In this document: piece after piece, positions 19,254 through 36,130 of the stretch
Layout of the letters: every line of letters begins with the position of its first letter
Numbering within the stretch: the stretch's first letter is position 1
Origin: a virus
Strand: one strand, 5' to 3'
Length of the DNA: 36,256 nucleotides
IMG/VR virus record: IMGVR_UViG_3300045107_000859
Coordinates: 1 to 36,256 of that record
Made by a program: the position numbers and the translations under genes
Notes under the pieces: model-generated
What the model was told of the DNA's origin: nothing
Databases searched by the model: none
The model's input: only the letters and a program-made list of their open reading frames with translations

Positions 19254-20213
19254 TTGCCCGTTCTTGCTACATCTGCTTTTCCTCTCGTGAGCGAGTGCCT
19301 GCAACTTACGCGGGCACTCCTCATGGACAGCGATATTCCATTCACGGTGACGATTCCGCCATCGGGAGCGGTGCGAACGCTATCGAGCTTGGCGACGATT
19401 ACGACAAATTCCGCGCATAACCTGCAAGTCGGAAATATCGTACAGGTGCAGAGTGTTACAGATTCCAGTTTCAACGGAACGCAGACCGTAACGGCAGTTC
19501 CTACTTCAACGACGTTTCAATATACGAGTAGCGGAGCAAATGTAACGAGCGGAAATGGAATCGTTTCTCCTGTAGTGCAGGGGGATTGGGCAACGGACAC
19601 CGTTTTGCTTCCCTTGGCGAATAAGGCGTACCGAAAGGTACAAAGTCGATTGCAGGAAAATGGCAGCAAGACGATGAGCAGCGAGATTTATACCACTCTT
19701 GCTGCGAATGCGACTCAATATAGCGATACGACGAATCCATCGCTTCCAGCAGACTTCCTTGCTCCGAGAGATTTATCGGAAAGAATCTCAGGCTCAGGGC
19801 TTGCTTACGTTCCTATGCGGCAAGTGAACGTCATTCCCAGTTTCCCTGATGGAACGACGCTTCAGGTTAACGGAGTTTATGCGTGGTTCGAGGATGGAAT
19901 TTATCTGCCCGGTTCCGTAAATGCGATGGATATACGGCTTCGCTATTTTGTGGCTTTCCCGGATGTATCGGATGGAACAGGCCAATTCACGATTCGCGGC
20001 TGCCAAGATGCGATTGCGACCTATACGGCGTTTCTGGCTGCCAATTCCAGAGGTTCAGGAAATGCAAGCATTTTCCTCGGCATGTTCAACGAGGATATGA
20101 AGGAATTGCTCAATCTGCAGGCTCATGCAAGGAATTACCTTGTAGGGAGACGCAGAGCGAACAATGTAGGGCGTGGCTCAGGACGTTTCTGGGGCACAGG
20201 TAGAGTTTGGTGA
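19254..20213 (+). CDS. Head-tail connector/adaptor-like protein with beta insertion, 319 aa
   Basis: TTG start with GGAGGG six bases upstream, joined to the previous stop (TAATTG). The helical frame (ATSAFPLVSECLQLTRALLM, VLLPLANKAYRKVQSRLQEN, CQDAIATYTAFLAANSRGSG) matches adaptor proteins that form a ring under the portal. Residues ~39-103 are a threonine/valine-rich beta module (TTNSAHNLQVGNIVQVQSVT, then FNGTQTVTAVPTSTTFQY) inserted into the first helix region. Related modules are in the proteins at 20603 and 27025. The basic C-terminus (RRRANNVGRGSGRFWGTGRVW) may contact DNA or portal. Confidence 0.6.
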   Translation: MPVLATSAFPLVSECLQLTRALLMDSDIPFTVTIPPSGAVRTLSSLATITTNSAHNLQVGNIVQVQSVTDSSFNGTQTVTAVPTSTTFQYTSSGANVTSGNGIVSPVVQGDWATDTVLLPLANKAYRKVQSRLQENGSKTMSSEIYTTLAANATQYSDTTNPSLPADFLAPRDLSERISGSGLAYVPMRQVNVIPSFPDGTTLQVNGVYAWFEDGIYLPGSVNAMDIRLRYFVAFPDVSDGTGQFTIRGCQDAIATYTAFLAANSRGSGNASIFLGMFNEDMKELLNLQAHARNYLVGRRRANNVGRGSGRFWGTGRVW

Positions 20214-20602: not shown

Positions 20603-23563
20603 TTGGGCCTAGACGGACACAATCCGCAAAGCATCAGGAATTTTGGCGGGCTGTACACTTTAACAGACCCAACGAATTTGCCTGTTTGGGCTTCGCCTAA
20701 TTGCCAGGATGTAGAATTCTATCCGGGGCTTGTGAAAACTCGCCCCGGACTTACTTCTGTCTTTGGTACATTTGGGCCGAACGCTCAATGCAACTACACC
20801 AAAACATACATTGATTCGCAGGAGTTCATTCGTACGCTGATTTTCTATTCAGGCGGTGGCCTATCTGGTGGGGCGACTCTCAGGAAGGAAGACGTAGCGA
20901 CGGGCACGCTTTCTAATATCGCCACAAACCTTCTTTCTTCCTATTGCAACTCCACTTCTCTTTTTTCAAGAGAGTACATGGCATTCAGCGACGGGAAATT
21001 TGGCGTAGACCTTCCTCGCCAATTCGATGATTCAACCGGAACAAACATATTCGACAGAGTAAGCCAGGTTGGGCCGGGAGCGCCTCCTTCGGCAACCGAA
21101 GAAAATATCAGTGCGCCTATCGCTGCGTCGCCTACTGGACTCGTTCCGCTCAATCAGGCAATCGTTGCGTCTCCAAACGGACTGTCTGAAAGCGGAAACG
21201 TTGTTACCGTAACACTGACCGCAGACTTCCTGATTCAAGCTACAAAGCAAATAGTTTTTTCGGGAGACACTGTAAAAATCACAGGAGCCGGAGTCGGGGG
21301 CTACAACGGAACATGGGTAGTAGCTTCTGTTATCAATGCCCGTCAATTTACGTTTATCAATACCACGACGGGACTAGCTAATTCAGGCAATGGAACCCTT
21401 CAGACTTCGCTTGTAGTGATTACCTCTACCGCTACCCTGCCAGCCCAATTCGCCCAATCGGGTGTAGGAACTTCGGTTGCGATTACAGGCGCAACCAGCG
21501 GAACGTATAACACAACTTACACGATTCGATTTGTGCAGGCAGCTTCCACGGGATTTACGGCATTGGGGCCTCAGGCCATTCTAGGAATGGCGGCATCTGG
21601 TGGCGGCACGGTGGCTCTTAGTGGAAATATCATTGCTGGAAAACATGGCGTAACAGTGATGTTCGTAAACCGCGAAGGCTACATTACGGAACCAGCGCCT
21701 CCGGTTTATTACACGGCATCAGGGAGCAAGAGAGTCATTCTTGCAAACATCCCTATCGGCCCTCCGAATATCGTTGCACGCATCGTTGCGTTTACACCTA
21801 TCAGTTCCACCAGCTTTTTCTACGACACGGGAACGAATCAAACCATTCCCAACAGCGAAATGGTCATCAACGATAACACAACTACCACGGCAGTATTCGA
21901 CTTCACGGATGACTTGCTCGAAGCAGGCACAAACGTAGATGACTTGTTTGACCTGGTAGAACTGGCACCAGCGGCAGGCGTGACTTCTTATTCTTCCAGA
22001 CTCTTCTGGTGGGGCGAACGCAACAAAGTTCAGAACTTTCTTAATCTTACCTTTGACGGCGGGTTTACCCAATCAGGAACGATTTACCCTTTGGGTTGGA
22101 TTCCTGATTCCACGAATTATGCAGGGGGTGGGCTGGCTTCCGCTGCTGTTTCAGGACAAGCATATTCGATTACAGGAGATGGTGCCACGGCAATCAGAGG
22201 ACTCATGGCCCAATCAGCCTATCAGGATGCGTTTGGCGACCCGATTATTGCGGTGAACACAGCCTATTCGGTTCGTGTCCGTGTCATGGATGGAGGCGGC
22301 GGAATTATCACCCCACTTCCCAATCTGCAAATCGAATTGAATAGCGTGAGCACGGGTCTAAATTCCAAATTCACGCTTAATCTCGCCGGAGCTACACTGT
22401 CCAATTCTCACTTCGCAGAATACACAGGTTCTCTTATCGCGGCGCAGAGTTCTATTCCCAGCGATTTGCAGCTAAGAATCTATATTGACAACACTCTTGG
22501 GAATGGCGAACAGATTTTTATAGATAACATCGAGATTTACCCGACAAACCAGCCCTATTTGGCGACTCAGGTCAGAGCTTCAAAGGTGGAAGACCCTGAG
22601 AGTTATTCCGGCATAGATGGGTTTTTGCTTCCTGCTCCTGAGAATGGGCAACGAGTGACGAACTGTTTTGTCATCCGAAACATTCTCTACATAGTGAAAG
22701 AGCGAAGTCTCTATGCTACGCAGGATGACGGTGTTTCTGAGCCTGCGAACTGGTCGATTCAGGAGATTTCTTCCAAAGTAGGGACATTCTCGGTTAAAGG
22801 TGTTGGATTGGGCGATGAATGGGCCGTTATCGCTGCGGAGTCTGGACTCTGGTACTTCACTGGCGGATTAATCGCGGAAGACAACAAACTCTCCAAAGAG
22901 ATTCAGCCTACTTGGGACTCGATTAACTGGACGTATGGGCATCTCATTTCGGTAGCAGTAGACACGCAAAGGAAAAGAATTTATGTTTCCGTGCCTTACG
23001 GCTCATCCACTGTCCCGAATAAGGTTCTAACGCTCGATTACACGGAAGGTTTCGGAGAATTGCAGGAAGGAATCGGCAGAAAATGGTGTCCGTGGTCGAT
23101 TTCGGCTGCTTCTGTTGCTCTGATTCAGAGAAATGACCTGACGCTTAAGGTTTTCTTCGGAAACAGCAATAACAATGGCCGTGTCTTCCAGCTAGATACG
23201 ACTGGTTCGGTTTACAACGACGTTTTGACGGGCATCGACTCGTTCTGGCAATCAGGATTTTTTCAAGCGCCAGTCAGGCAGAATTTCGGGTATTTAAGCG
23301 GAAATATAGTAGGCTCTGGAAGTATGTCGCTTAGTTTATACAGGGGCGACATGACGAACGTAACGGCAATTCGAGGGTGGTTGATGAATCTTCTGGGCTA
23401 TACCAACATGGAGAGAACGATTCAGAAGCAAGGTTTCAGAATGAGCGTGAAGTTTGAATGCACGGCGTTGGCTATTCCCAGTCAGCAGTATTTCAGCATG
23501 CAAGGCGTGGATATTTGGACAGCTCCGGCAGTTTGGGCACCCGTGAGAGGTGTAAATGCCTAA
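20603..23563 (+). CDS. Large tail hub/stabilisation-like protein, 986 aa
   Basis: TTG start with GAGG five bases upstream. The start (GLDGHNPQSIRNFGGLYTLT, NCQDVEFYPGLVKTRPGLTS) is the 'list of parameters' opening of podoviral tail tubular or DNA-stabilisation proteins, here followed by strand repeats. Residues ~197-267 (TVKITGAGVGGYNGTWVVAS) and ~271-340 (VAITGATSGTYNTTYTIRFV) are two copies of the beta module also found in the adaptor. The C-terminal half (NCFVIRNILYIVKERSLYAT, EWAVIAAESGLWYFTGG) looks like a beta-propeller. It probably plugs the portal and forms the tail hub. Confidence 0.6.
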   Translation: MGLDGHNPQSIRNFGGLYTLTDPTNLPVWASPNCQDVEFYPGLVKTRPGLTSVFGTFGPNAQCNYTKTYIDSQEFIRTLIFYSGGGLSGGATLRKEDVATGTLSNIATNLLSSYCNSTSLFSREYMAFSDGKFGVDLPRQFDDSTGTNIFDRVSQVGPGAPPSATEENISAPIAASPTGLVPLNQAIVASPNGLSESGNVVTVTLTADFLIQATKQIVFSGDTVKITGAGVGGYNGTWVVASVINARQFTFINTTTGLANSGNGTLQTSLVVITSTATLPAQFAQSGVGTSVAITGATSGTYNTTYTIRFVQAASTGFTALGPQAILGMAASGGGTVALSGNIIAGKHGVTVMFVNREGYITEPAPPVYYTASGSKRVILANIPIGPPNIVARIVAFTPISSTSFFYDTGTNQTIPNSEMVINDNTTTTAVFDFTDDLLEAGTNVDDLFDLVELAPAAGVTSYSSRLFWWGERNKVQNFLNLTFDGGFTQSGTIYPLGWIPDSTNYAGGGLASAAVSGQAYSITGDGATAIRGLMAQSAYQDAFGDPIIAVNTAYSVRVRVMDGGGGIITPLPNLQIELNSVSTGLNSKFTLNLAGATLSNSHFAEYTGSLIAAQSSIPSDLQLRIYIDNTLGNGEQIFIDNIEIYPTNQPYLATQVRASKVEDPESYSGIDGFLLPAPENGQRVTNCFVIRNILYIVKERSLYATQDDGVSEPANWSIQEISSKVGTFSVKGVGLGDEWAVIAAESGLWYFTGGLIAEDNKLSKEIQPTWDSINWTYGHLISVAVDTQRKRIYVSVPYGSSTVPNKVLTLDYTEGFGELQEGIGRKWCPWSISAASVALIQRNDLTLKVFFGNSNNNGRVFQLDTTGSVYNDVLTGIDSFWQSGFFQAPVRQNFGYLSGNIVGSGSMSLSLYRGDMTNVTAIRGWLMNLLGYTNMERTIQKQGFRMSVKFECTALAIPSQQYFSMQGVDIWTAPAVWAPVRGVNA

Positions 23564-26039: not shown

Positions 26040-27028
26040 CAGACGGGCCACAATACGACTACCGAACTGACCCGCAGTTCGTTAAGGCCAATCCATTAGA
26101 CATGGATGCCTACTTGAAGCAGGTTGACCCTGACTATGCTAAAGCCTCATCCAAAGATAGAGCTGCTTACATCAGCCATATCAAAGGGCTAGATGTTCGC
26201 ACTCAGTTTGAAAAAGAGAATGACCCATCTGATGCTGATTTTATAAACAAACAGGAAGCGGGCTATCAAAAAGCTTACAGAAACGAACAAGACAAAAATA
26301 AGATTGTTCTAAGCGATGCTGACGTTGCCACTCTTGGTTTGGGTGGAATTGGAATTGGCCGCACTATCGCCAAACAAGGATTAAAAGCATCCATCGCCCC
26401 AATCACTAAAGGGATTGTAGGAGCCGCAGCAGGAAGCGCCGCAGGTTCCTATGGAGGCAGAGAACTGGGAAAGATTGTAGGACAGCCAGAGGTGGGCGCT
26501 CAAATTGGCGCAACGCTCGGAGGATTGGCCGGGGGATTCTATGGCGGATTTGAGAAAACTCCCGCATTGGGCACTCCCGAAAATCCAGGGTACATGAGCA
26601 AACTACCTACTAGATTACCACCTTCTATGCGTGGTGACCCGTTCGCACCTAAACCGACAGTAGCTGCTCCCGTATGGGAAGCTCCGTCGCACACAGATGT
26701 TTACGGCAGCCCAGAATTTCCGGGGCCATTTAGCCCTGTACCCAATAAGGTTCCTGCACAATTCCGAGGCGACCCGTTCGCACCACCCGCAAGTTCTGGC
26801 GGTGTAGCCCGTTCTGGGCCGGACCCATTTACGCCTTACGAGCGAAACGTGACTGCAGGGCAAGAGCCTTTAATTGTAACTCCTAGCGAAGCGGCAAGTC
26901 TCAATCGATTGCAATCTATCGCTGAACAAAGAGCAAGGGAACGCGGAATGCAGTACGCAGGAGGCGTTAGAACGGCTGGCAAAAACAAGGTAGTTAATCG
27001 CCTATTCCCGCCAAGGACGGACCAATGA
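26036..27028 (+). CDS. Glycine-zipper protein with likely AUA start, 330 aa
   Basis: The sequence upstream of the first ATG (26102) is clearly coding: A-D-G-P-Q-Y-D-Y-R-T-D-P-Q-F-V-K. No canonical start is in frame after the preceding stop. AAGGA followed by ATA at 26036-26038, overlapping the previous TAG (ATAG), marks the expected place. Residues ~125-170 hold a glycine-zipper membrane segment (GIVGAAAGSAAGSYGGRELG, then IGATLGGLAGGFYGGF). The remainder is proline-rich and repeats R-G-D-P-F-A-P twice (SMRGDPFAPKP, QFRGDPFAPPA). Probably the ejected membrane-channel component; inference. Confidence 0.5.
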   Translation: MADGPQYDYRTDPQFVKANPLDMDAYLKQVDPDYAKASSKDRAAYISHIKGLDVRTQFEKENDPSDADFINKQEAGYQKAYRNEQDKNKIVLSDADVATLGLGGIGIGRTIAKQGLKASIAPITKGIVGAAAGSAAGSYGGRELGKIVGQPEVGAQIGATLGGLAGGFYGGFEKTPALGTPENPGYMSKLPTRLPPSMRGDPFAPKPTVAAPVWEAPSHTDVYGSPEFPGPFSPVPNKVPAQFRGDPFAPPASSGGVARSGPDPFTPYERNVTAGQEPLIVTPSEAASLNRLQSIAEQRARERGMQYAGGVRTAGKNKVVNRLFPPRTDQ

Positions 27029-30000
27029 AGAAACGTTTATTTCTGTTGCTTGCCCTGATTTTTCCAGCTCTTGCCTACGGGCAGAACAGTAATTATCAGC
27101 AGATTTTGCTTGGCTCTACAGGCCGTCCTGTAGCCGGAGCGCAAGTTACTATTTGTTCTGCCGGAGCGACGGGGATTCCATGCTCTCCTACGGTAAATAT
27201 CTATAACGCCGATGGGAGCGCGGCCTCCAATCCGATTATCAGCGACAGTCTGGGGAATTGGGGATTCTGGGCGCCTCCGGGAAATTACACCTATACCGTA
27301 ACAGGGCTGAATGTTACCTCTCATGGCCCATTTACGATTTCCCTGCCTTGTATCGTAGGCGCTTCCTGCGCCTCGGCTGGCGGATTGCCGAATAGTTCTG
27401 TAGCTTTTTCCGCCACTCCTTCCTTTGCAGCTTCATCCAATGCCAGCTATTCCATGACGCTGACAGGAAATATCACGGCAATTACGATTACAGGCACGCC
27501 CATCAATGGAAACCTTTTGCGCTTTCAGTTCACGCAGGATGCCACTGGCGGCAGAACGGTTACATGGCCGGGCAATTTCTCCATTCCTACAAGTTTTGCT
27601 TTCAAATCCGTTCCCAATTCAACCAACCGCGTTACTTTTGTCTATGACGGAACGAACTGGCAGATGCTTGAAGACATACCGGACGGAGCACTTGACTATT
27701 CCACGGTGGCTTTTTCTTCTACGCCGACATTCTCCAATGCGCGTTCGGCTGCATTTGATTTCACGCTATCCGGGAATGTAACAAGCTCCACCTTCTCCAC
27801 AACGGGGCGAGCGGGAACAATTTTCAACCTCAATGCGTGCGAAAACGGAACCGGAGGGTTTACGTTTGCCTTCCCCGGCAATGTCACTAACCCTCCGGGA
27901 TTCTCTTTTGATACTGCGGCAGGCCACTGCAACTATCTAACCTATCGCTATAGCGGTTCGGCATGGACTCCTATTTCCACTGGCGGTTCTGGTGGCGGGG
28001 GTGGTACGCCTTGCACGACAACTACAGGTGCCTTGCAAAGGGAACTTGCCGGAGCTTTTGGATGTTCCAATGTTTCTGAATCTGGGACTACCTTGCGCGT
28101 GAATGATGATATTCAGGCAAAAGGGCCGAATCCTTATTTCGACATTACAAATTATGGCGGGTATGTTCAGAACAATAGCTCTATTCAAAATACGACAGCC
28201 AATACCACCGTTTCTTCTACGACCGTTACTCTAGCTTCAGCGATAGATTTTGCCAATGGACAGGGCATCGTGATTAACGGCGCAGGGTCGTTGCCGACGA
28301 TTCCAAACTCTCCGACAGTTGGTACCGTTACGCCTCTTTATGTGACAGGTGGCTCAACTACCCGTTCTTATAAATGGGTTGGAGAGGATTATTCAGGCGG
28401 ACTCAAAGCCGCTGGAACAGCAGGAACGTCTGCCGCTACCGCAGCCACTCTCGGAATCAATACAATCTCTATTACTGGGGTAGTTCGTTCTGGTGGACTG
28501 GATACTTTCACTTGCGCCACAAACTGCAATGTGGCCATAGGCTCTCCTATTCAGATTAGTGGCTTCTCTGGAGGTTCAAATTCAACGGTCAATGGCTCGA
28601 TGACGGTCAATACAATTCCGACTTCCACGACCTTTACCGTTTATGCACAAGGACTTGCAGACTACACAGAATCAGCTTCCGCAACCATGCAAGTAAGGGC
28701 TTGCAATGCTCTTTTTCCTTCAGGAACACTCACTCAGGAAGCAACGGTTCTTCGTTATTGGGTTTATCGGCAAGACAATGGAGCTGGAAATTATAATCTG
28801 GTTGGCGTCGTTCCGGGTCAAGACCCTTTCTATATTGATTGCGGGCAGGGAGTATCAGGTCAGCCGTCTTATGTGCCTTCCACGGCTCCCGCTGCCGATA
28901 TACCGGGCTATCTGGCGACAACCATCGTTTCCGGTGGTGGTACGACTTCTCTCGTGGTAGCGAATGCAGCAGGAACTTCTGTTTCCGGACAAACCGCACA
29001 GCATGATAACTCACAAGTGCTTCGCAATCTTTTGGGAACGGTTTACTCGGCGCATGGCGGAATAATTCGCTTCCCGGTGCTTCCATCCAATAGCACTCTT
29101 TCCTTTCCCTTTAATGCGACTACAAACTTGCAATCAGTTAGTAATTCTACTTCGGCTTCAGTGCGAATCGAAGTAAGCGCAATCACGCTAAATCAACCAA
29201 TAGCGATTTCTCCCAATTCGGAATGGACCGGTATCCCACAGGTAGGCTATGCCTCATTTGGATATTCCACTTACGGAAGCATCGGTGGAGCTGCATCGCC
29301 CATGTTCATCTTTAACACAGCGATGAATAGTTGGGCAAAAGTCAGCAAAATTAAATTCGCTGGTTCTTCTACGGGACATACTTCCATCATTTCCGATGAG
29401 AAAATTGGTGGCGGCGGAAACGTTGGTCTTATTTTTGAAGATGTAGTGTTTTCAGGGAATAACGCCCCTACGGCAATTATCAAGGGCGGTTTCGATTTCT
29501 GGTTCATTCGAGGGCAGGGGTCTGTAAGCGGGTCAGAGAATGCTACATGGTATGCAAGCCCTATCATCAGGCTGACAAACGTTTCGAGCTATGTTACTAC
29601 TTCCGGCTCTCAGCTTCCCGGTAGAATCACGATTGACCACATGAATCTAGCCGGAGGAACAGGCATCCAGTTTGATAATCTTCCAGCTTCCAATGAGGCT
29701 GCGACCATCACAAATGGCGGTCTCAACCTGATTGAGTATTCGGCTTTGCATGAATTATCTGCTGGGCCGCATATCAGGGTAAATACGACTAGCTCCGCTT
29801 ATGGAATCTTCCTGATTGACCCGAACTTTGCCGACCAGACAAACGGTTTGCATCAGCCGATAGTTGAATTGACTGGCACGACTCTTTTCAATCATATTGT
29901 AGTGTCAGGCGCGGTAGCGGGCGGAGGTAATCCAACTATCCTAGGGGGTGGTTCGCAGCTTGGAGCTATATGCCTAAACAACGTATTCACGCAGGGATGC

Positions 30001-32397
30001 GGGCCTTCTCCCAATACGAATATCCAAGGCTCTACGTCTCTTGTAGATGCCGGAGTCTTTCAACTCATAAATGGCGCTTCTATGGGCGCTCAATTGCCTA
30101 ATCCAACAGGAACTTGTACTGCAGTTGTGAGTGCTGGAGGTTCCGTACCGGTAGGCACTCATACCTACGCAATCGCATGGGCAGACAGGAATCCCGTAGT
30201 TTATGGAAACGGAACTGTTCCTTATGCCGGAATAACGCTATTCACGGCCACTTGTTCCGCTACAACTTCTGGAGGCAATCAGACTGTCACGATTACAAGG
30301 CCTTCCATCCCTGCAACGGCTTACGGATGGGTGGTAGCAAGGGATGGAGCGGTAGCGGCTGATGGTGGGGGCGGAGCTTTTACCGTTCCTATCCCTGCCG
30401 CGACTTCCACCTTTGCAGATACGCATAGCTTCACCAGCGGTCAATCGCTTCCGGGAGTCAATACGGCATTTATTTCCAAGGTGGATTCCACCGGAGTAAT
30501 CGGGCCTTTACTGAAAGGCGGAGGACTCGGCGGAAACTCTACGAGCAAAACTGGGAACTACACGCTCCTAGGAACGGATTTCCTCATTTATGCTGACCCC
30601 ACTGGCGGAGCATTTACGATTACGCTGCCTCATGCGATTGCTTCACAGGTATGGTCAGTCATCAATCCCAGTTCCAGTGCGAACGTGCTTACCGTGCAGC
30701 CTGATTCCGGGCTGATTGACGGCTCGGCAAGTACTACGGTTCCAGCCAATGCAGCGAAATTCTTTTCCTGCGATGGAACGAACTGCAGAACCTTGGCGAC
30801 TACAGGTGGGGGCGGTGGAGGGACTGGCACCATCAACAATGCCTCCCAGTATTCGCTTGCCTACTACTCTGCGGCAGGAACAACCAATACGGTCAGCGGA
30901 ATACCTTCTCCTACAACGAATGGCATCTATTCGATGGTTTACAACGTATCCGGTGGCGTAGCTGTTGCACCTTCTACTGCGCTTTCCGGCGTGCCTAAAA
31001 ACGTACAGACGGGCAATTACACGCTTCTCTATTCAGACAGAGCGGGAGATTTGCTCTTCAATTCCTGCACGACGCCGACACTTACCCTTCCGGCTATCTC
31101 AGGGAACCTTGCCTCCAACATGCCGTTCAAGGTGACAAATAACTGCTCCGGGAACCTGACAATTACCGCGACCAGCCCGAATACGATTGACGGCGGAGCG
31201 GCAGGAGGGTCAATTACCCTTTTCCCTGGTTGGGCGGCGTTTATAACGCAAGACAATGCACCTAACTGGTTCTCTCTGAAGTTCCCGACAATCAGCGGCG
31301 TACCAACTTCCTGCACGGCAATTACAGGAAATGCTTCTACGGGTATTCAATGTGCCGTTCTTCCTGTGGTCTCTGGCGTCAATTCGCAGACAGTGACTTA
31401 TACCGCCGTAGCCGGAGACAACGGCAAGATTGTTTCCATGAACGGTTCATCAATTACGCTGAACCTTCCCGCTTCGCCTCCTGCTTCCCCGTGGGGCATA
31501 TTTGTGGAGAATTTGAATGCTTCTACGCTGACCGTAAACAGGAACGGTCTCAACATTGACGGCGTGGCTTCCAATATCACGCTCGCTCAGAATACGGGAT
31601 TATGGGTGACTACGGACGGCTCGAACTATTTCACTTCTAGAGGCGTAGGTTCAGGCTCCGGTGGACTAGGGGACCCTGGAGGTAACGGCATCGTTGTCCG
31701 TACTGCGCTCAATACCACTACGAACCGTTCAATCGCTACGGCAGATTCGACGCATATCACGGTGACGAATGCTGACGGCACGGCAGGCAATCCTACGCTG
31801 GACATTGGGACAAACGTAGTCACGCCGTCCAGCACAAACACGCTTACGAACAAAACTCTGGACGCCGAAGGGACAGGCAACGTAATTACTGTTCCTTTCA
31901 AGATTTATCAGCAGGTAGCGGCTTGCAACAACGCGACGGCTGGCGTCAATCTTGACCTGCCTACCGCAAACGCGCCAACGGCAAACTGCCTGACAGGAAC
32001 GAACACGCAACAGGGGACTCTCGATTTTGGAGATTCAGCCAACACAACGGCGCAATGGGAATACAGGCTGCCTTCGGACTGGTCTGGCAATCTTGACATT
32101 ACGATTGATTGGCTGGTGACGGCTTCTGGCGGCTCTAACGCCGTGAAGTGGACAGTAGCGACGGCTTGTTCGGCTCCTGCTGCTACTTATGACACAGCTT
32201 TTAATACGGCACAGACAATTACCACAAACGTTGGCGCGAATAACAGCATCACCGAATCTACGCAAACCGCTCTAACAACAACAGGATGTTCGGCTGGTAA
32301 CATCCTTCACCTAAAAATAGGCCGCGATACTACGGATACCTTCACTGGAACGGCTCGCCTTTATGGCTTTGAACTAACCCTACGGAGGGCGATGTAA
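27025..32397 (+). CDS. Very large tail-fibre/beta-helix protein with Sec signal peptide, 1790 aa
   Basis: Residues 1-19 (MKKRLFLLLALIFPALAYG) are a typical Sec signal peptide before Q20. Then follow an Ig/carboxypeptidase-like domain (~28-105, GRPVAGAQVTICSAGATG) and two similar modules at ~126 and ~226 (VAFSATPSF, VAFSSTPTF). At ~478-557 there is a beta module like that in the adaptor. A beta-helix-like region (~600-980; FWFIRGQGSVSGSENATWYA) is next. Three ~90-residue modules at ~1175, ~1328 and ~1454 share 'Y-T-L...ITLP...N..LTV...IDG'. The C-terminal ~150 residues (QWEYRLPSDWSGNLDITIDW) form a beta-sandwich-like domain. The architecture is that of a receptor-binding fibre; the signal peptide is unusual for a phage. 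Confidence 0.75.
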   Translation: MKKRLFLLLALIFPALAYGQNSNYQQILLGSTGRPVAGAQVTICSAGATGIPCSPTVNIYNADGSAASNPIISDSLGNWGFWAPPGNYTYTVTGLNVTSHGPFTISLPCIVGASCASAGGLPNSSVAFSATPSFAASSNASYSMTLTGNITAITITGTPINGNLLRFQFTQDATGGRTVTWPGNFSIPTSFAFKSVPNSTNRVTFVYDGTNWQMLEDIPDGALDYSTVAFSSTPTFSNARSAAFDFTLSGNVTSSTFSTTGRAGTIFNLNACENGTGGFTFAFPGNVTNPPGFSFDTAAGHCNYLTYRYSGSAWTPISTGGSGGGGGTPCTTTTGALQRELAGAFGCSNVSESGTTLRVNDDIQAKGPNPYFDITNYGGYVQNNSSIQNTTANTTVSSTTVTLASAIDFANGQGIVINGAGSLPTIPNSPTVGTVTPLYVTGGSTTRSYKWVGEDYSGGLKAAGTAGTSAATAATLGINTISITGVVRSGGLDTFTCATNCNVAIGSPIQISGFSGGSNSTVNGSMTVNTIPTSTTFTVYAQGLADYTESASATMQVRACNALFPSGTLTQEATVLRYWVYRQDNGAGNYNLVGVVPGQDPFYIDCGQGVSGQPSYVPSTAPAADIPGYLATTIVSGGGTTSLVVANAAGTSVSGQTAQHDNSQVLRNLLGTVYSAHGGIIRFPVLPSNSTLSFPFNATTNLQSVSNSTSASVRIEVSAITLNQPIAISPNSEWTGIPQVGYASFGYSTYGSIGGAASPMFIFNTAMNSWAKVSKIKFAGSSTGHTSIISDEKIGGGGNVGLIFEDVVFSGNNAPTAIIKGGFDFWFIRGQGSVSGSENATWYASPIIRLTNVSSYVTTSGSQLPGRITIDHMNLAGGTGIQFDNLPASNEAATITNGGLNLIEYSALHELSAGPHIRVNTTSSAYGIFLIDPNFADQTNGLHQPIVELTGTTLFNHIVVSGAVAGGGNPTILGGGSQLGAICLNNVFTQGCGPSPNTNIQGSTSLVDAGVFQLINGASMGAQLPNPTGTCTAVVSAGGSVPVGTHTYAIAWADRNPVVYGNGTVPYAGITLFTATCSATTSGGNQTVTITRPSIPATAYGWVVARDGAVAADGGGGAFTVPIPAATSTFADTHSFTSGQSLPGVNTAFISKVDSTGVIGPLLKGGGLGGNSTSKTGNYTLLGTDFLIYADPTGGAFTITLPHAIASQVWSVINPSSSANVLTVQPDSGLIDGSASTTVPANAAKFFSCDGTNCRTLATTGGGGGGTGTINNASQYSLAYYSAAGTTNTVSGIPSPTTNGIYSMVYNVSGGVAVAPSTALSGVPKNVQTGNYTLLYSDRAGDLLFNSCTTPTLTLPAISGNLASNMPFKVTNNCSGNLTITATSPNTIDGGAAGGSITLFPGWAAFITQDNAPNWFSLKFPTISGVPTSCTAITGNASTGIQCAVLPVVSGVNSQTVTYTAVAGDNGKIVSMNGSSITLNLPASPPASPWGIFVENLNASTLTVNRNGLNIDGVASNITLAQNTGLWVTTDGSNYFTSRGVGSGSGGLGDPGGNGIVVRTALNTTTNRSIATADSTHITVTNADGTAGNPTLDIGTNVVTPSSTNTLTNKTLDAEGTGNVITVPFKIYQQVAACNNATAGVNLDLPTANAPTANCLTGTNTQQGTLDFGDSANTTAQWEYRLPSDWSGNLDITIDWLVTASGGSNAVKWTVATACSAPAATYDTAFNTAQTITTNVGANNSITESTQTALTTTGCSAGNILHLKIGRDTTDTFTGTARLYGFELTLRRAM

Positions 32398-33149
32398 TGC
32401 TCTCTATCATCCTAGCCTTAGCCTTAATCTTGGCCCCTTCGCAAGAGGTAGGACGCCGCCGCACGCTTTATCCATCTGGGGGTGGAGGAAGTATAGCTTT
32501 CGATGCGGTCTGTTCTGGTTGCTCGTCCAGTGCCGTCCAGACATCAGCCGCTTCTACTACCATAAGCTGGACACATGTTGTAGGTGGAGGGTCTCATCCT
32601 GTTCTGCTTGTGATGCTCTATAAAAATTCAGGAACATGGACTTGTACTTACAATTCCGTTTCCATGACTCAACTTGGTATTCAAGCAGACGGCGCTGGGG
32701 CAGAACAGACAGCCTTATTCATCCTAGTAGGCCCAACTACAGGTTCCCATACCGTCTCCTGCACTTCTAGCGTGAACAACGACTTAGAGGGTGGTTCTAT
32801 CAGCTTTACGGGAGTCAACCAAACAGGGACGGCAGGAACCTCATGGCGCTCGTCCCCACCTTGCGTGAATGACGGTGGAAGCGGGACTTCTAGTATCTCC
32901 AATACAGTAAGCAACGCTGCAAACGGAGATATGGTTGTAGATACGGCAGTCGTATTTAATAACCCTAGCACAACAACGATGACCAAAGGGGCTTCGCAGA
33001 CTCTTGGTTTCTATCAGCATAATGCTTTAGGGAACACGCAGGAGACAGGGGCCAGCTACTTAAGCGCAACAGGGTCAACCACAATGACCTGGAGCATCAC
33101 TGCGTCAAGTTTTTGGGCCAGTTGTGCGGTAGCTCTAATCCCAGGATGA
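32397..33149 (+). CDS. Beta-sandwich surface protein with hydrophobic N-terminus, 250 aa
   Basis: Starts by TAATG overlap with the giant fibre gene. Residues 1-14 (MLSIILALALILAP) are a signal-like hydrophobic stretch but lack basic residues. The rest is rich in Ser, Thr and Gly with paired cysteines (FDAVCSGCSSSAVQTSAAST). It has a pattern common in secreted bacterial beta-sandwich proteins: 'HPVLLVMLYKNSG', 'MTQLG', 'LFILVGPTTGSHTV', and an end like ASSFWASCAVALIPG. A fibre or exported adhesin is inferred. Confidence 0.6.
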   Translation: MLSIILALALILAPSQEVGRRRTLYPSGGGGSIAFDAVCSGCSSSAVQTSAASTTISWTHVVGGGSHPVLLVMLYKNSGTWTCTYNSVSMTQLGIQADGAGAEQTALFILVGPTTGSHTVSCTSSVNNDLEGGSISFTGVNQTGTAGTSWRSSPPCVNDGGSGTSSISNTVSNAANGDMVVDTAVVFNNPSTTTMTKGASQTLGFYQHNALGNTQETGASYLSATGSTTMTWSITASSFWASCAVALIPG

Positions 33150-35023
33150 AACCAATGAGAAAATTTCTATTTGCAGCTTTGCTGATTTTACTTGGGGCCT
33201 TGAATGCGAATGCGGCTTGCACCGGAAGCGGTACCTCTTGGAGTTGTCCTTCGGGAGCGACAACAACTGACATTCAGAACGCTCTGAATAGCGCCACGGA
33301 TGGCGCAACGCTATCCTTTGCGGCTGGCACCTACTCCTGGTCATCCAGGATGAATTTCAGCGTATCGAAGGGCGCAACGCTCATCTGCCCGACGCCGAAT
33401 TGCAACGTGACCATCTCCGGCCAGATTTTCGGCTTTTCAGACCTTACGAACGGCGTCACGACAAACAAACTTTATCGAATTTCAGGCTTCAATTTCACGG
33501 GAAACAACGCTGGGGGCCAGGCTTCTATCTGGTGGGAGCTGAACGGAGCGACGGGCAGAGGCACGGTCAGCGCAACGCGAATTGACCACAATACTTTCAC
33601 CATCAATTCTTCTAGTGGGGAAATGACGATTATGTTTTGCGGTGACACGTCTAGCAACCTCTACTGCTACGGCGTAATAGACCACAATACAATCATTTCT
33701 AATGGTCCTTTTCCTACCGCTCTCTACTTCCCAATCGGCCAGTACGATTCTTCCCCGCCGCTCGCCAATTTCCAAGGAACGGCTAACAACATGTTCCTTG
33801 AGGATAACACCCTAATCACGACGACGAACACGGACATTTCCGGCCCTTGCATGACGGATGCTTGGGGCTGGGCCCCGCTTGTCATCCGGCACAACTCGAT
33901 TACGAACTGCTTGGAAGTGGTTCACGATTTGACGCACGCTGGCGGACCTTCCAACGTCGAGGTCTACAACAACCAGTTTCTCTTCACCACGGCGATGAAC
34001 GGCAGCGGCGCGGAAGATGGCTATCGGATGTTTCACCATCAAGGCGCACAGGTGGAGATTTTTTTCTTCAACACGTTCAAGCCATTAACCGAGCCTCACA
34101 ACGCGGATACCATTTCAGCTTTGGCGAACTATGTGGACGGCGCCTGTAGTAGCTATCCCTGCCTTGGAAATGGTTCTCACGGGCCGCAGCCCGGACGTGA
34201 CAGTGCCGGCGTCTTAAGACCGATTTACGTATGGGGAAACACTGACGTAAACAATAATACTTTGGTGCTTGGCGGAAATGAATCCGCTGGTACTTATGTC
34301 AAAGAGAACCGCGATCTATACAACGACCAGAGCGGGACGGCCCAGACTTCGCCTACATCGCCTTTCAACGGGACGGTTGGAGTGGGATGGGGCACGCTTG
34401 CCAATCGGCCAACGACTTGCACACACTCAAACCCGACGAACCCAACCTTAAGCCCTGCCGATGATGGGCACGGCGGCGTTGGGTATGCGGCAGGGACAAC
34501 GATTGGCACTATAGGTCCTTCATCAGGAGCGGGAGTAGCTGGAGATTATGTCCTCTATGGATGCTCAGCTACTAATACTTGGACCTTATACTATACGCCC
34601 TACACCTATCCGCACCCACTAACTACAGGCGGTGGCGGAACTCCTGCTGTTTCACTGAATCCTTCTGCTCTTTCTTTTGGCAATCAGGCGCAAAACACCC
34701 CCAGTAATGCTTTGACTGTTACGCTCACTAATACTGGAACGGCAACGCTGACGATTACCTCGATTGCTCTTATTACAGGAACGAATTACACGATTTCCGC
34801 CAATACTTGCGGGGCTTCGCTTGGAGCAAGCAGCTCTTGCAATGTTTCGATTGTTTTCACGCCGACTGCGCTGACAACTTTCACGGATACGTTGCGCATT
34901 ACAACTAATGCGGCTTCCAGTCCAGATAATCTTTTGATTTCAGGTAACGGTGTAATTCCCACGGCCCCAGCAAGACAGATGTCAGGACTTCTAAACGCTA
35001 TAGGAAATGTGAGGACACGATGA
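33146..35023 (+). CDS. Secreted beta-helix protein with HYDIN/choice-of-anchor-D domain, ~625 aa
   Basis: ATG at 33146 overlaps the previous TGA; a second ATG at 33155 has AGGA eight bases upstream and starts the clear signal peptide MRKFLFAALLILLGALNANA, cut before ACTG. Then follows a right-handed beta-helix of pectate-lyase type: DIQNALNSATDGATLSFAAG opens it, and repeats such as IDHNTFTINSS, IDHNTIISNG and IRHNSITNCLEVVHDL follow. The last ~120 residues are an Ig-like domain (VSLNPSALSFGNQAQNTPSN, then SSSCNVSIVFTPT) of the choice-of-anchor-D class, abundant in Acidobacteriota exoproteins. It could be a depolymerase-like fibre; catalytic residues were not identified. Confidence 0.7.
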   Translation: MKPMRKFLFAALLILLGALNANAACTGSGTSWSCPSGATTTDIQNALNSATDGATLSFAAGTYSWSSRMNFSVSKGATLICPTPNCNVTISGQIFGFSDLTNGVTTNKLYRISGFNFTGNNAGGQASIWWELNGATGRGTVSATRIDHNTFTINSSSGEMTIMFCGDTSSNLYCYGVIDHNTIISNGPFPTALYFPIGQYDSSPPLANFQGTANNMFLEDNTLITTTNTDISGPCMTDAWGWAPLVIRHNSITNCLEVVHDLTHAGGPSNVEVYNNQFLFTTAMNGSGAEDGYRMFHHQGAQVEIFFFNTFKPLTEPHNADTISALANYVDGACSSYPCLGNGSHGPQPGRDSAGVLRPIYVWGNTDVNNNTLVLGGNESAGTYVKENRDLYNDQSGTAQTSPTSPFNGTVGVGWGTLANRPTTCTHSNPTNPTLSPADDGHGGVGYAAGTTIGTIGPSSGAGVAGDYVLYGCSATNTWTLYYTPYTYPHPLTTGGGGTPAVSLNPSALSFGNQAQNTPSNALTVTLTNTGTATLTITSIALITGTNYTISANTCGASLGASSSCNVSIVFTPTALTTFTDTLRITTNAASSPDNLLISGNGVIPTAPARQMSGLLNAIGNVRTR

Positions 35024-35367
35024 AAGCAGGAAAGTTTTTAATCGCAATATGGTTTCTGGCTACAGTAGGACTAATGTGGTGGGGTCATGCTTCCGTTCAT
35101 GCCCAAACCGCAACAGCGCCTTTTACGATTCAGGCAGCAGGGCCAAGCTCGAATTGCCCCGCTCCTGCAACTGGAATCACGCTTATTTGTTTCACGACGG
35201 ACAAAGGCATGATTCAGAGCATAAACGGGGCGGCATATGTCGCGCCAACTTCCGCTGGCGTCACGAGCTTTAACGGGCAGACTGGAGCCATTACTTATAC
35301 CCCTCCCGCAGCCCCTGTTACGAGTGTCAATGGCAAGACAGGGGCGGTCACTCTTTCGTTGCAGTGA
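35020..35367 (+). CDS. Small secreted fibre-type protein, 115 aa
   Basis: ATG overlaps the preceding TGA. Residues 1-28 are a signal peptide (basic MKAGK, hydrophobic FLIAIWFLATVGLMWWG, A-S-V-H-A before Q29). The C-terminal part repeats a tail-fibre motif: VTSFNGQTGAITYTPPAAP and then VTSVNGKTGAVTLSLQ, the 'SVNG.TGaV.L' sequence seen at the ends of many phage fibres. It may be a fibre tip or a detached fibre end. Confidence 0.65.
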   Translation: MKAGKFLIAIWFLATVGLMWWGHASVHAQTATAPFTIQAAGPSSNCPAPATGITLICFTTDKGMIQSINGAAYVAPTSAGVTSFNGQTGAITYTPPAAPVTSVNGKTGAVTLSLQ

Positions 35368-35405: not shown

Positions 35406-35666
35406 ATGAACGGACTAAGCGGGTTTGCCTCACAGCATCCTTTCGCGTTGCTCATCGGCTTCTGGGTGTTCTCGAACCTTGTCTCGACAATGCCGTCACC
35501 CAAGTCAGGCGGGTGGACAGACGGCTTGGGCTATGCATGGCTCTTTAATGCCCTGCATGGTCTAAGCGGCACGATTGGCCGCGTTCTCGCCCAATACCCC
35601 GCAACACAAAAACTGACAGGTCAGCAGGTAATAGCGCCTCAGGCAGAGGAGCCGCCTAAGCCTTGA
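35406..35666 (+). CDS. Small membrane protein of the lysis region, 86 aa
   Basis: GGAGGGCGG directly precedes the ATG. One clear membrane segment (FALLIGFWVFSNLVSTMP) and a weaker hydrophobic stretch (LGYAWLFNALHGLSGTIGRV) suggest one or two passes, followed by a proline/glutamate tail. It starts the group of small membrane genes after the fibres, the usual place of holins, but the family is not recognised. Confidence 0.5.
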   Translation: MNGLSGFASQHPFALLIGFWVFSNLVSTMPSPKSGGWTDGLGYAWLFNALHGLSGTIGRVLAQYPATQKLTGQQVIAPQAEEPPKP

Positions 35667-35669
35667 CCC

Positions 35670-35915
35670 ATGTCAGACAATCTCACTCAAATCGGCATTG
35701 GCGGAATCTTTGCCTTGATGGTGATACGCGAAGTATTGGGATTCTTAAAAAAAAAGAACCCTGCTTCTGGTGACAACGGTCACAGCGGAACGATGCCTGT
35801 CAGCTTTTGGCGAGAGCAGTTCCGGCAAATCATCTCGGAAGTTATCAACAATGAATTCAAGACAAGAGATGAGACAATTCGCCGCATCATCAGAGAGGAA
35901 ATAGGAAGGCAGTGA
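35670..35915 (+). CDS. Holin-like protein with possible programmed frameshift, 81 aa
   Basis: A short N-terminus, one membrane helix (IGIGGIFALMVIREVLGFL, residues 8-26), the KKK stop signal and a long amphipathic basic-acidic helix (WREQFRQIISEVINNEFKTR, then RIIREEIGRQ). This is the shape of class III-like holins or XhlA-type lysis proteins. Codons 27-29 sit in a run of nine A residues. A -1 slip would give a 34-residue form with only the membrane helix. The TGA overlaps the next GTG. Its own start lacks a good Shine-Dalgarno. Confidence 0.5.
   Translation: MSDNLTQIGIGGIFALMVIREVLGFLKKKNPASGDNGHSGTMPVSFWREQFRQIISEVINNEFKTRDETIRRIIREEIGRQ
35750..35783 (+). promoter_or_regulatory. Candidate -1 frameshift signal: A-AAA-AAG plus hairpin
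   Basis: The slippery heptamer at 35750-35756 is in the zero frame (AAA AAG), identical to the E. coli dnaX site. The -1 frame then reads E-P-C-F-W and stops at TGA 35771-35773. A perfect 5-bp hairpin GTGAC-AACG-GTCAC follows at 35770-35783. The 13-base distance is longer than ideal, and the upstream Shine-Dalgarno-like stimulator (TTGGGA) is weak. Confidence 0.45.
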
Positions 35916-36130
35916 ATCCCATCTTCCTGCAAATCGCGCTCATCATCACAGGGCAGCTTGTAGGTGCCATCATTACGATTTATTTGGTGCGCTGGCGCAA
36001 GCGGGAAGAAGAGCCAGAAAAGCTCTCAGAGAGAATCGAAGAACTTGCTAAACAGGTAGTGACTTTACGCGGCCAGATAAAGTACATTGAAGGCAGACTT
36101 AACGGTAAATTCTGGAAGAATGAAGCATAA
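35912..36130 (+). CDS. Membrane-anchored coiled-coil (spanin/hemolysin-XhlA-like) protein, 72 aa
   Basis: GTG start with AGGAAGG three bases before and overlapping the preceding TGA. The first ~26 residues are a membrane segment (IFLQIALIITGQLVGAIITI), followed by basic residues (VRWRKREEE) and a coiled coil (LSERIEELAKQVVTLRGQIK, YIEGRLNGK). N-terminal anchor plus coiled coil is the layout of inner-membrane spanin subunits and other lysis accessory proteins. No catalytic domain. Confidence 0.5.
   Translation: MNPIFLQIALIITGQLVGAIITIYLVRWRKREEEPEKLSERIEELAKQVVTLRGQIKYIEGRLNGKFWKNEA

Follow-up and report, generated by a model that had tools for sequence, protein, structure and literature searches.

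Four consecutive genes encoding fibre-like proteins, three with Sec-type leaders and one with a weaker hydrophobic start, were identified in a virus contig of 36,256 bases (single virus record IMGVR_UViG_3300045107_000859); the whole contig is referred to here as the window. With a probability of about 0.6, these genes encode tail appendages (fibres, spikes or accessories) of a podovirus-like Acidobacteriota phage that would be Sec-exported, cleaved, oxidised in the periplasm and attached to the virion at lysis.

Gene context and host

The late genes of the window include those for a large terminase subunit, a major head protein (phrog_14242) and a 986-aa virion structural protein, among others, followed by the fibre block. 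The minus-strand early genes include those for YqaJ and ERF recombination proteins. Judged from this gene content, the phage appears to be podovirus-like. The main features are as follows.

20603-23563, plus strand: 986-aa tail protein matching phrog_3287 (virion structural protein); leaderless control and bait for related phages, with relatives in IMG/VR and Acidobacteriota MAGs
27025-32397, plus strand: fibre 1, 1790 aa, 26 Cys; leader MKKRLFLLLALIFPALAYG before Q, N-terminal anchor-like domain and long Cys-rich fibre; signal-peptide score 14.2
27025-27081, plus strand: predicted 19-aa Sec leader of fibre 1 with A-Y-G/Q cleavage site; ATGA-coupled start, AAGGA upstream
27085-27318, plus strand: mature N-terminal domain (N-domain) of fibre 1, transthyretin/Ig-like fold, two conserved Cys (profile A2); homologous to N-domains of leaderless tailspikes and tail proteins
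32397-33149, plus strand: protein 2, 250 aa, 6 Cys, minor-tail-like (phrog_553 minor tail protein, E 6e-6); weak hydrophobic leader MLSIILALALILAPS followed by QEVG
33146-35023, plus strand: protein 3, 625 aa, 14 Cys; leader MKPMRKFLFAALLILLGALNANA before A, C-terminal HYDIN/choice-of-anchor D domain (Pfam PF22544; NF012200 choice_anch_D, E 8e-14); signal-peptide score 13.9
35020-35367, plus strand: protein 4, 115 aa, 2 Cys; leader MKAGKFLIAIWFLATVGLMWWGHASVHA before Q, C-terminal VTSVNGKTGAVTL fibre motif; signal-peptide score 10.2
35406-36130, plus strand: three small ORFs (86, 81 and 72 aa) that contain hydrophobic segments and lie immediately downstream of the fibre block; candidate lysis genes, with weak holin PHROG matches for the third ORF

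Many soil viral contigs encode relatives of the 986-aa protein, as do 34 genome loci that are almost exclusively from Acidobacteriota MAGs; the host is therefore very probably an acidobacterium. A tblastn search with this protein against cultured phages gave no match. One MAG labelled Patescibacteria (L071) contains a phage region of the Acidobacteriota-phage type and is probably misbinned.

The fibre genes lie in the late structural region near tail genes and the candidate lysis genes, where tailspike and tail-fibre genes are expected. The three small ORFs may form a cassette for lysis, and the window contains no recognisable endolysin gene. A leaderless 319-aa protein (19254-20213) has a weak tail-fibre match and could in principle be the receptor-binding protein, which counts against the exported-fibre reading.

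Leaders of the four fibre genes

The starts of genes 1, 3 and 4 are coupled by ATGA overlaps and that of gene 2 by TAATG, and Shine-Dalgarno-like motifs precede gene 1 (AAGGA) and gene 2 (GGAGGG), so the N-termini of the four proteins are secure. The coordinates given in an earlier sequence-only reading hold except for the third gene, which starts at the coupled ATG 33146, overlapping the stop of gene 2, and not at TTG 33113, the mechanical ORF start.

Signal peptides were evaluated with a rule-based score, for which four secreted proteins of E. coli served as controls (10.4-13.1). The score overlooks some evident leaders (scores of 8-10), and the leader rates given here are thus lower bounds. 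The Sec-type leaders that the sequence-only reading had proposed for the 1790-aa fibre, the beta-helix/HYDIN protein and the 115-aa protein were recovered with scores of 14.2, 13.9 and 10.2, respectively, whereas the other, upstream structural genes of the window score 8.3 or less. The products of the genes at 27025, 33146 and 35020 have a basic n-region, a hydrophobic h-region and small residues at -3 and -1, as expected of Sec substrates cleaved by signal peptidase I (SPase I); gene 2 shows this pattern weakly. For the N-domain proteins described below, a lipoprotein (SPase II) signal with a lipobox Cys at +1 was ruled out, since +1 is Gln in 66/66.

Protein 2 fails the signal-peptide rule through the absence of a basic n-region, although a possible APS/Q site is present. 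Its start had fairly been called weaker, and its relatives L132 (score 10.6) and L134 (9.9) have better leaders; a third relative, L133, is leaderless, with the conserved domain at its very start. AlphaFold modelled protein 2 poorly (pLDDT 59), and a fold search with this model gave no informative match. Fibre 1 has mosaic homologues in about 30 related loci. Protein 3 is probably a beta-helix from the look of its sequence, and a short-pattern search recovered no relatives. Protein 4 has leadered relatives in L135 and L139, and leaderless fibre proteins with the VTSVNGKTGAVTL motif occur elsewhere.

A leadered N-domain family

A search for the leader in homologous fibre genes of related phages, as the sequence-only reading had advised, identified a large family. 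A profile HMM of the mature domain only was searched in all ORFs of about 120 related sequences, replacing a fibre-composition filter that was biased towards already-leadered proteins. This search gave 75 non-redundant hits, and 66 distinct leadered fibres were found among the N-domain proteins of these loci. Their mature parts have in common the consensus AQ/GSRxDxIVxGxxGxPxxGATVxVC...PCSPLAxIYSD...NPxxxDGLGNYxFYAxPGxY.

When the 66 leadered proteins were aligned by anchoring on the mature domain, the residue at -1 was A in 40, G in 25 and S in 1, and that at -3 was A in 45 and otherwise another small or aliphatic residue. Position -2 is variable, and position +1 is Gln in 66/66. The leader rule (score 10) was passed by 41/59 N-domain ORFs and by 24/566 other phage ORFs (Fisher p = 4e-33); shuffled leaders passed in 7.8% of cases. 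Across tens of phages the leader anatomy is conserved and the leader sequence varied. The leaders of two Acidobacteriota genomes themselves often end in A-x-A/Q, like those of the phages. The N-domain is carried by 4/297 Acidobacteriota genomes.

Leaderless homologues, which the sequence-only reading had named as evidence against its own proposal, do exist in other phages, but in these the conserved sequence sets in where the mature protein would start. This fits a modular leader placed before a virion anchor and not a wrongly called start. Eight of the 75 hits, from the most distant phages, are leaderless, with the conserved part at the extreme N-terminus; in the stretch read, seven of them contain 0 or 1 Cys and the one in L109 contains 7.

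A second, different N-domain is leadered in L131, a prophage-like segment of an Acidobacteriota genome, and the phage matches listed for it begin after the leader cleavage site. All eight checked phage relatives of this type (8/8, cultured or environmental) are leaderless, and their first residue lies no more than a few positions from the mature N-terminus; tail spikes annotated in Xanthomonas, Shewanella and Pseudoalteromonas phages are among them.

Several side observations were made in these loci. In the distant group, L106, L108, L110, L112, L113, L115 and L116 encode at about 5.2-7.2 kb an N-domain without a leader and almost without Cys. Several contigs of this L106-L116 group encode leadered proteins downstream, a natural within-group contrast. 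Two leadered proteins of about 230 aa (L108 at 18413 and L110 at 17058) have a common STIPPMPAAPQFDPTSVI segment; they are not obviously fibres and recur in distant relatives. A prophage-like segment of the Acidobacteriota genome G245 (L165, 15592-19998, and L166, 50-4680) contains a tight group of three leadered fibre-like genes, after which come genes resembling membrane acyltransferases.

Cysteine content and parity

The four window proteins contain 26, 6, 14 and 2 Cys, respectively. Cys makes up 2.08% of leadered fibres compared with 0.51% of large proteins without a leader encoded at the same loci (p = 1e-19). The Cys count is even in 67/75 leadered proteins and in 36/39 clusters (p = 4e-8), whereas it is even in 410/937 leaderless proteins; larger leaderless clusters with two or more Cys are mildly even (79/125). 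High and even Cys counts are expected of disulphide-bonded proteins folded outside the cytoplasm.

Parallels in cultured phages

Tunturi_1 and Tunturi_2 are podophages of Tunturiibacter psychrotolerans X5P2 (PMC11924767). Both have leaders on gp12, gp13, gp14 (tail spike), gp16 and gp17 (virion structural protein), i.e., on five of six consecutive tail genes. These proteins contain 20, 10, 21, 2 and 32-34 Cys, respectively; gp12 was read in Tunturi_1 alone, and the total of 21 in gp14 of that phage is odd. The predicted mature proteins begin at Q20 in gp12 and gp13 and at Q19 in gp16 and gp17. The portal, major head and tail proteins are leaderless. In the siphophage Tunturi_4, leaders are present on two tail or structural proteins, gp113 and gp114, and gp114 is 47% identical to gp17 of Tunturi_1, with 19/20 Cys shared. 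A text search of the isolation paper (PMC11924767) found no mention of signal peptides.

Tunturi_1, 2 and 4 resemble the window phage in their consecutive leadered, Cys-rich tail spike or structural proteins but their sequence similarity to the window proteins is distant or absent. Tunturi_3 (L186, 7573-29886), an Acidobacteriota podophage, infects the strain of Tunturi_1 and 2 and serves as an internal control and as a limit to the rule. Its fibre-like proteins are leaderless and mostly Cys-poor, so the leadered trait goes with the phage lineage and is not imposed by the host.

Homology and fold of the mature N-domain

In profile searches the N-domain matched two leaderless proteins, the tail spike of Sulfitobacter phage phiGT1 (E 9e-10) and the tail protein of Marinomonas phage P12026 (E 3e-11), and these matches establish its homology to tailspike N-domains; those to tailspike N-domains in the PDB are weak. 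An AlphaFold model of the domain (pLDDT 84) was closest in a fold search to the Pan3 tail spike (Z 8.9), followed by that of Pam1 (8.3) and the P22 head-binding domain (8.2). Nearly equal Z values were obtained for CnaB, pilin and carboxypeptidase domains of the cell surface; the fold alone is not specific for tailspike anchors.

Some family members weakly match Pfam Dioxygenase_C, and the profile weakly matches 9yh9, a catechol 1,2-dioxygenase from a soil phage survey. The fibre N-domains could pass for metabolic genes in soil viral annotation.

Alternative explanations

The main rival, considered unlikely, is that the fibres are exported without being virion parts and act as secreted or envelope-associated depolymerases or adhesins, for example in clearing surface polysaccharide or blocking superinfection. 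Strong leaders and Cys parity would fit such proteins, the beta-helix and choice-of-anchor passengers are exoprotein-like, and the Pfam match of the N-domain is CarboxypepD_reg, under the gathering score. However, the N-domain homologues are the N-termini of annotated tail proteins and spikes of cultured phages, a kinship that favours a virion role, as far as homology can indicate function. The genes also lie between virion genes and candidate lysis genes, and, apart from a 124-aa tail-fibre protein, leaderless candidates for a spike are few in Tunturi_1 and 2.

It is quite improbable that host exoprotein genes were captured together with leaders that are now functionless, as the sequence-only reading had offered as an alternative. 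Host leaders look like those of the phages, and capture may explain some C-terminal passengers, such as the beta-helix with a choice-of-anchor D domain. It does not explain leaders that precede phage anchor-type domains, retain their anatomy in tens of phages despite varied sequence, and are kept on homologous passengers by unrelated podo- and siphophages. Hydrophobic N-termini throughout the main clade would also suit an uncleaved segment retained on a virion protein as a tail plug or membrane anchor. This last explanation is highly improbable given the perfect -3/-1/+1 pattern for SPase I in 66/66 proteins, the short h-regions, the leaderless homologues that start at the mature N-terminus and the disulphide-like Cys parity, which implies an oxidising compartment.

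Several observations weigh against exported virion fibres themselves: Tunturi_3 indicates that the route is not required by the host, the leader of protein 2 is poor, the N-domain fold is unspecific and the Cys count of gp14 is odd.

Comparison with known systems

The tailspikes of P22 (gp9), Sf6 (gp14), the cyanophages Pam1 and Pan3, and phiGT1 resemble the window fibres in having an N-terminal Ig/TTL-like anchor followed by beta-rich receptor-binding or enzymatic parts, and in being encoded after tail and ejection genes. A leaderless cytoplasmic N-terminus is usual for podovirus tailspikes and tail fibres, and those examined are leaderless, whereas the window group has a Sec leader before the domain and a high, even Cys content. 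Coat proteins of Inoviridae (e.g., M13 G3p) are likewise Sec-dependent preproteins, and they are virion proteins. Inoviruses, however, assemble at the membrane, whereas the window belongs to a dsDNA phage with terminase and capsid genes and otherwise leaderless structural proteins. An exported coat protein of a filamentous ssDNA phage was ruled out by the large terminase and the major head protein. Surface morons of the lambda Lom type are also phage-encoded and have signal peptides, and Lom lies near tail-fibre genes; Lom is a small outer-membrane beta-barrel, unlike the window proteins, long fibres that carry virion-type N-domains.

In tailed phages, synthesis and attachment of tail fibres are understood to take place in the cytoplasm. 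The literature searched, which left out most subscription journals and preprints, contained no report of such fibres bearing Sec leaders or signal peptides.

Proposed export and assembly route

In the route proposed for exported virion fibres, the preproteins would pass through the host Sec translocon and be cut by signal peptidase I just before the glutamine. Disulphides would form and the fibres trimerise in the periplasm. Heads and tails would be assembled in the cytoplasm, and once lysis brings the contents of both compartments together, the fibres would dock via their N-terminal anchor-type domain. Late docking is plausible, since tailspike addition is the last step in P22 assembly and also succeeds in vitro with tailless heads.

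Export, proposed by the sequence-only reading, is well supported at the level of sequence by the SPase I site, the even and high Cys counts, the host-type leaders and the parallels in cultured phages. That the proteins are actually exported and cleaved in the cell, form disulphides and attach to virions upon lysis is inferred. On balance, the comparisons lean towards a lineage-spanning group of tailed phages with virion assembly divided between two compartments, in which heads and tails made in the cytoplasm are combined at or after lysis with disulphide-bonded receptor-binding proteins exported to and matured in the periplasm.

If this is true, Sec-exported, disulphide-bonded receptor-binding proteins would represent a new assembly route for tailed phages. 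The route would explain the long Cys-rich fibres of soil phages, and secreted-looking enzymes of soil viral contigs may be tail parts and not auxiliary metabolic genes.
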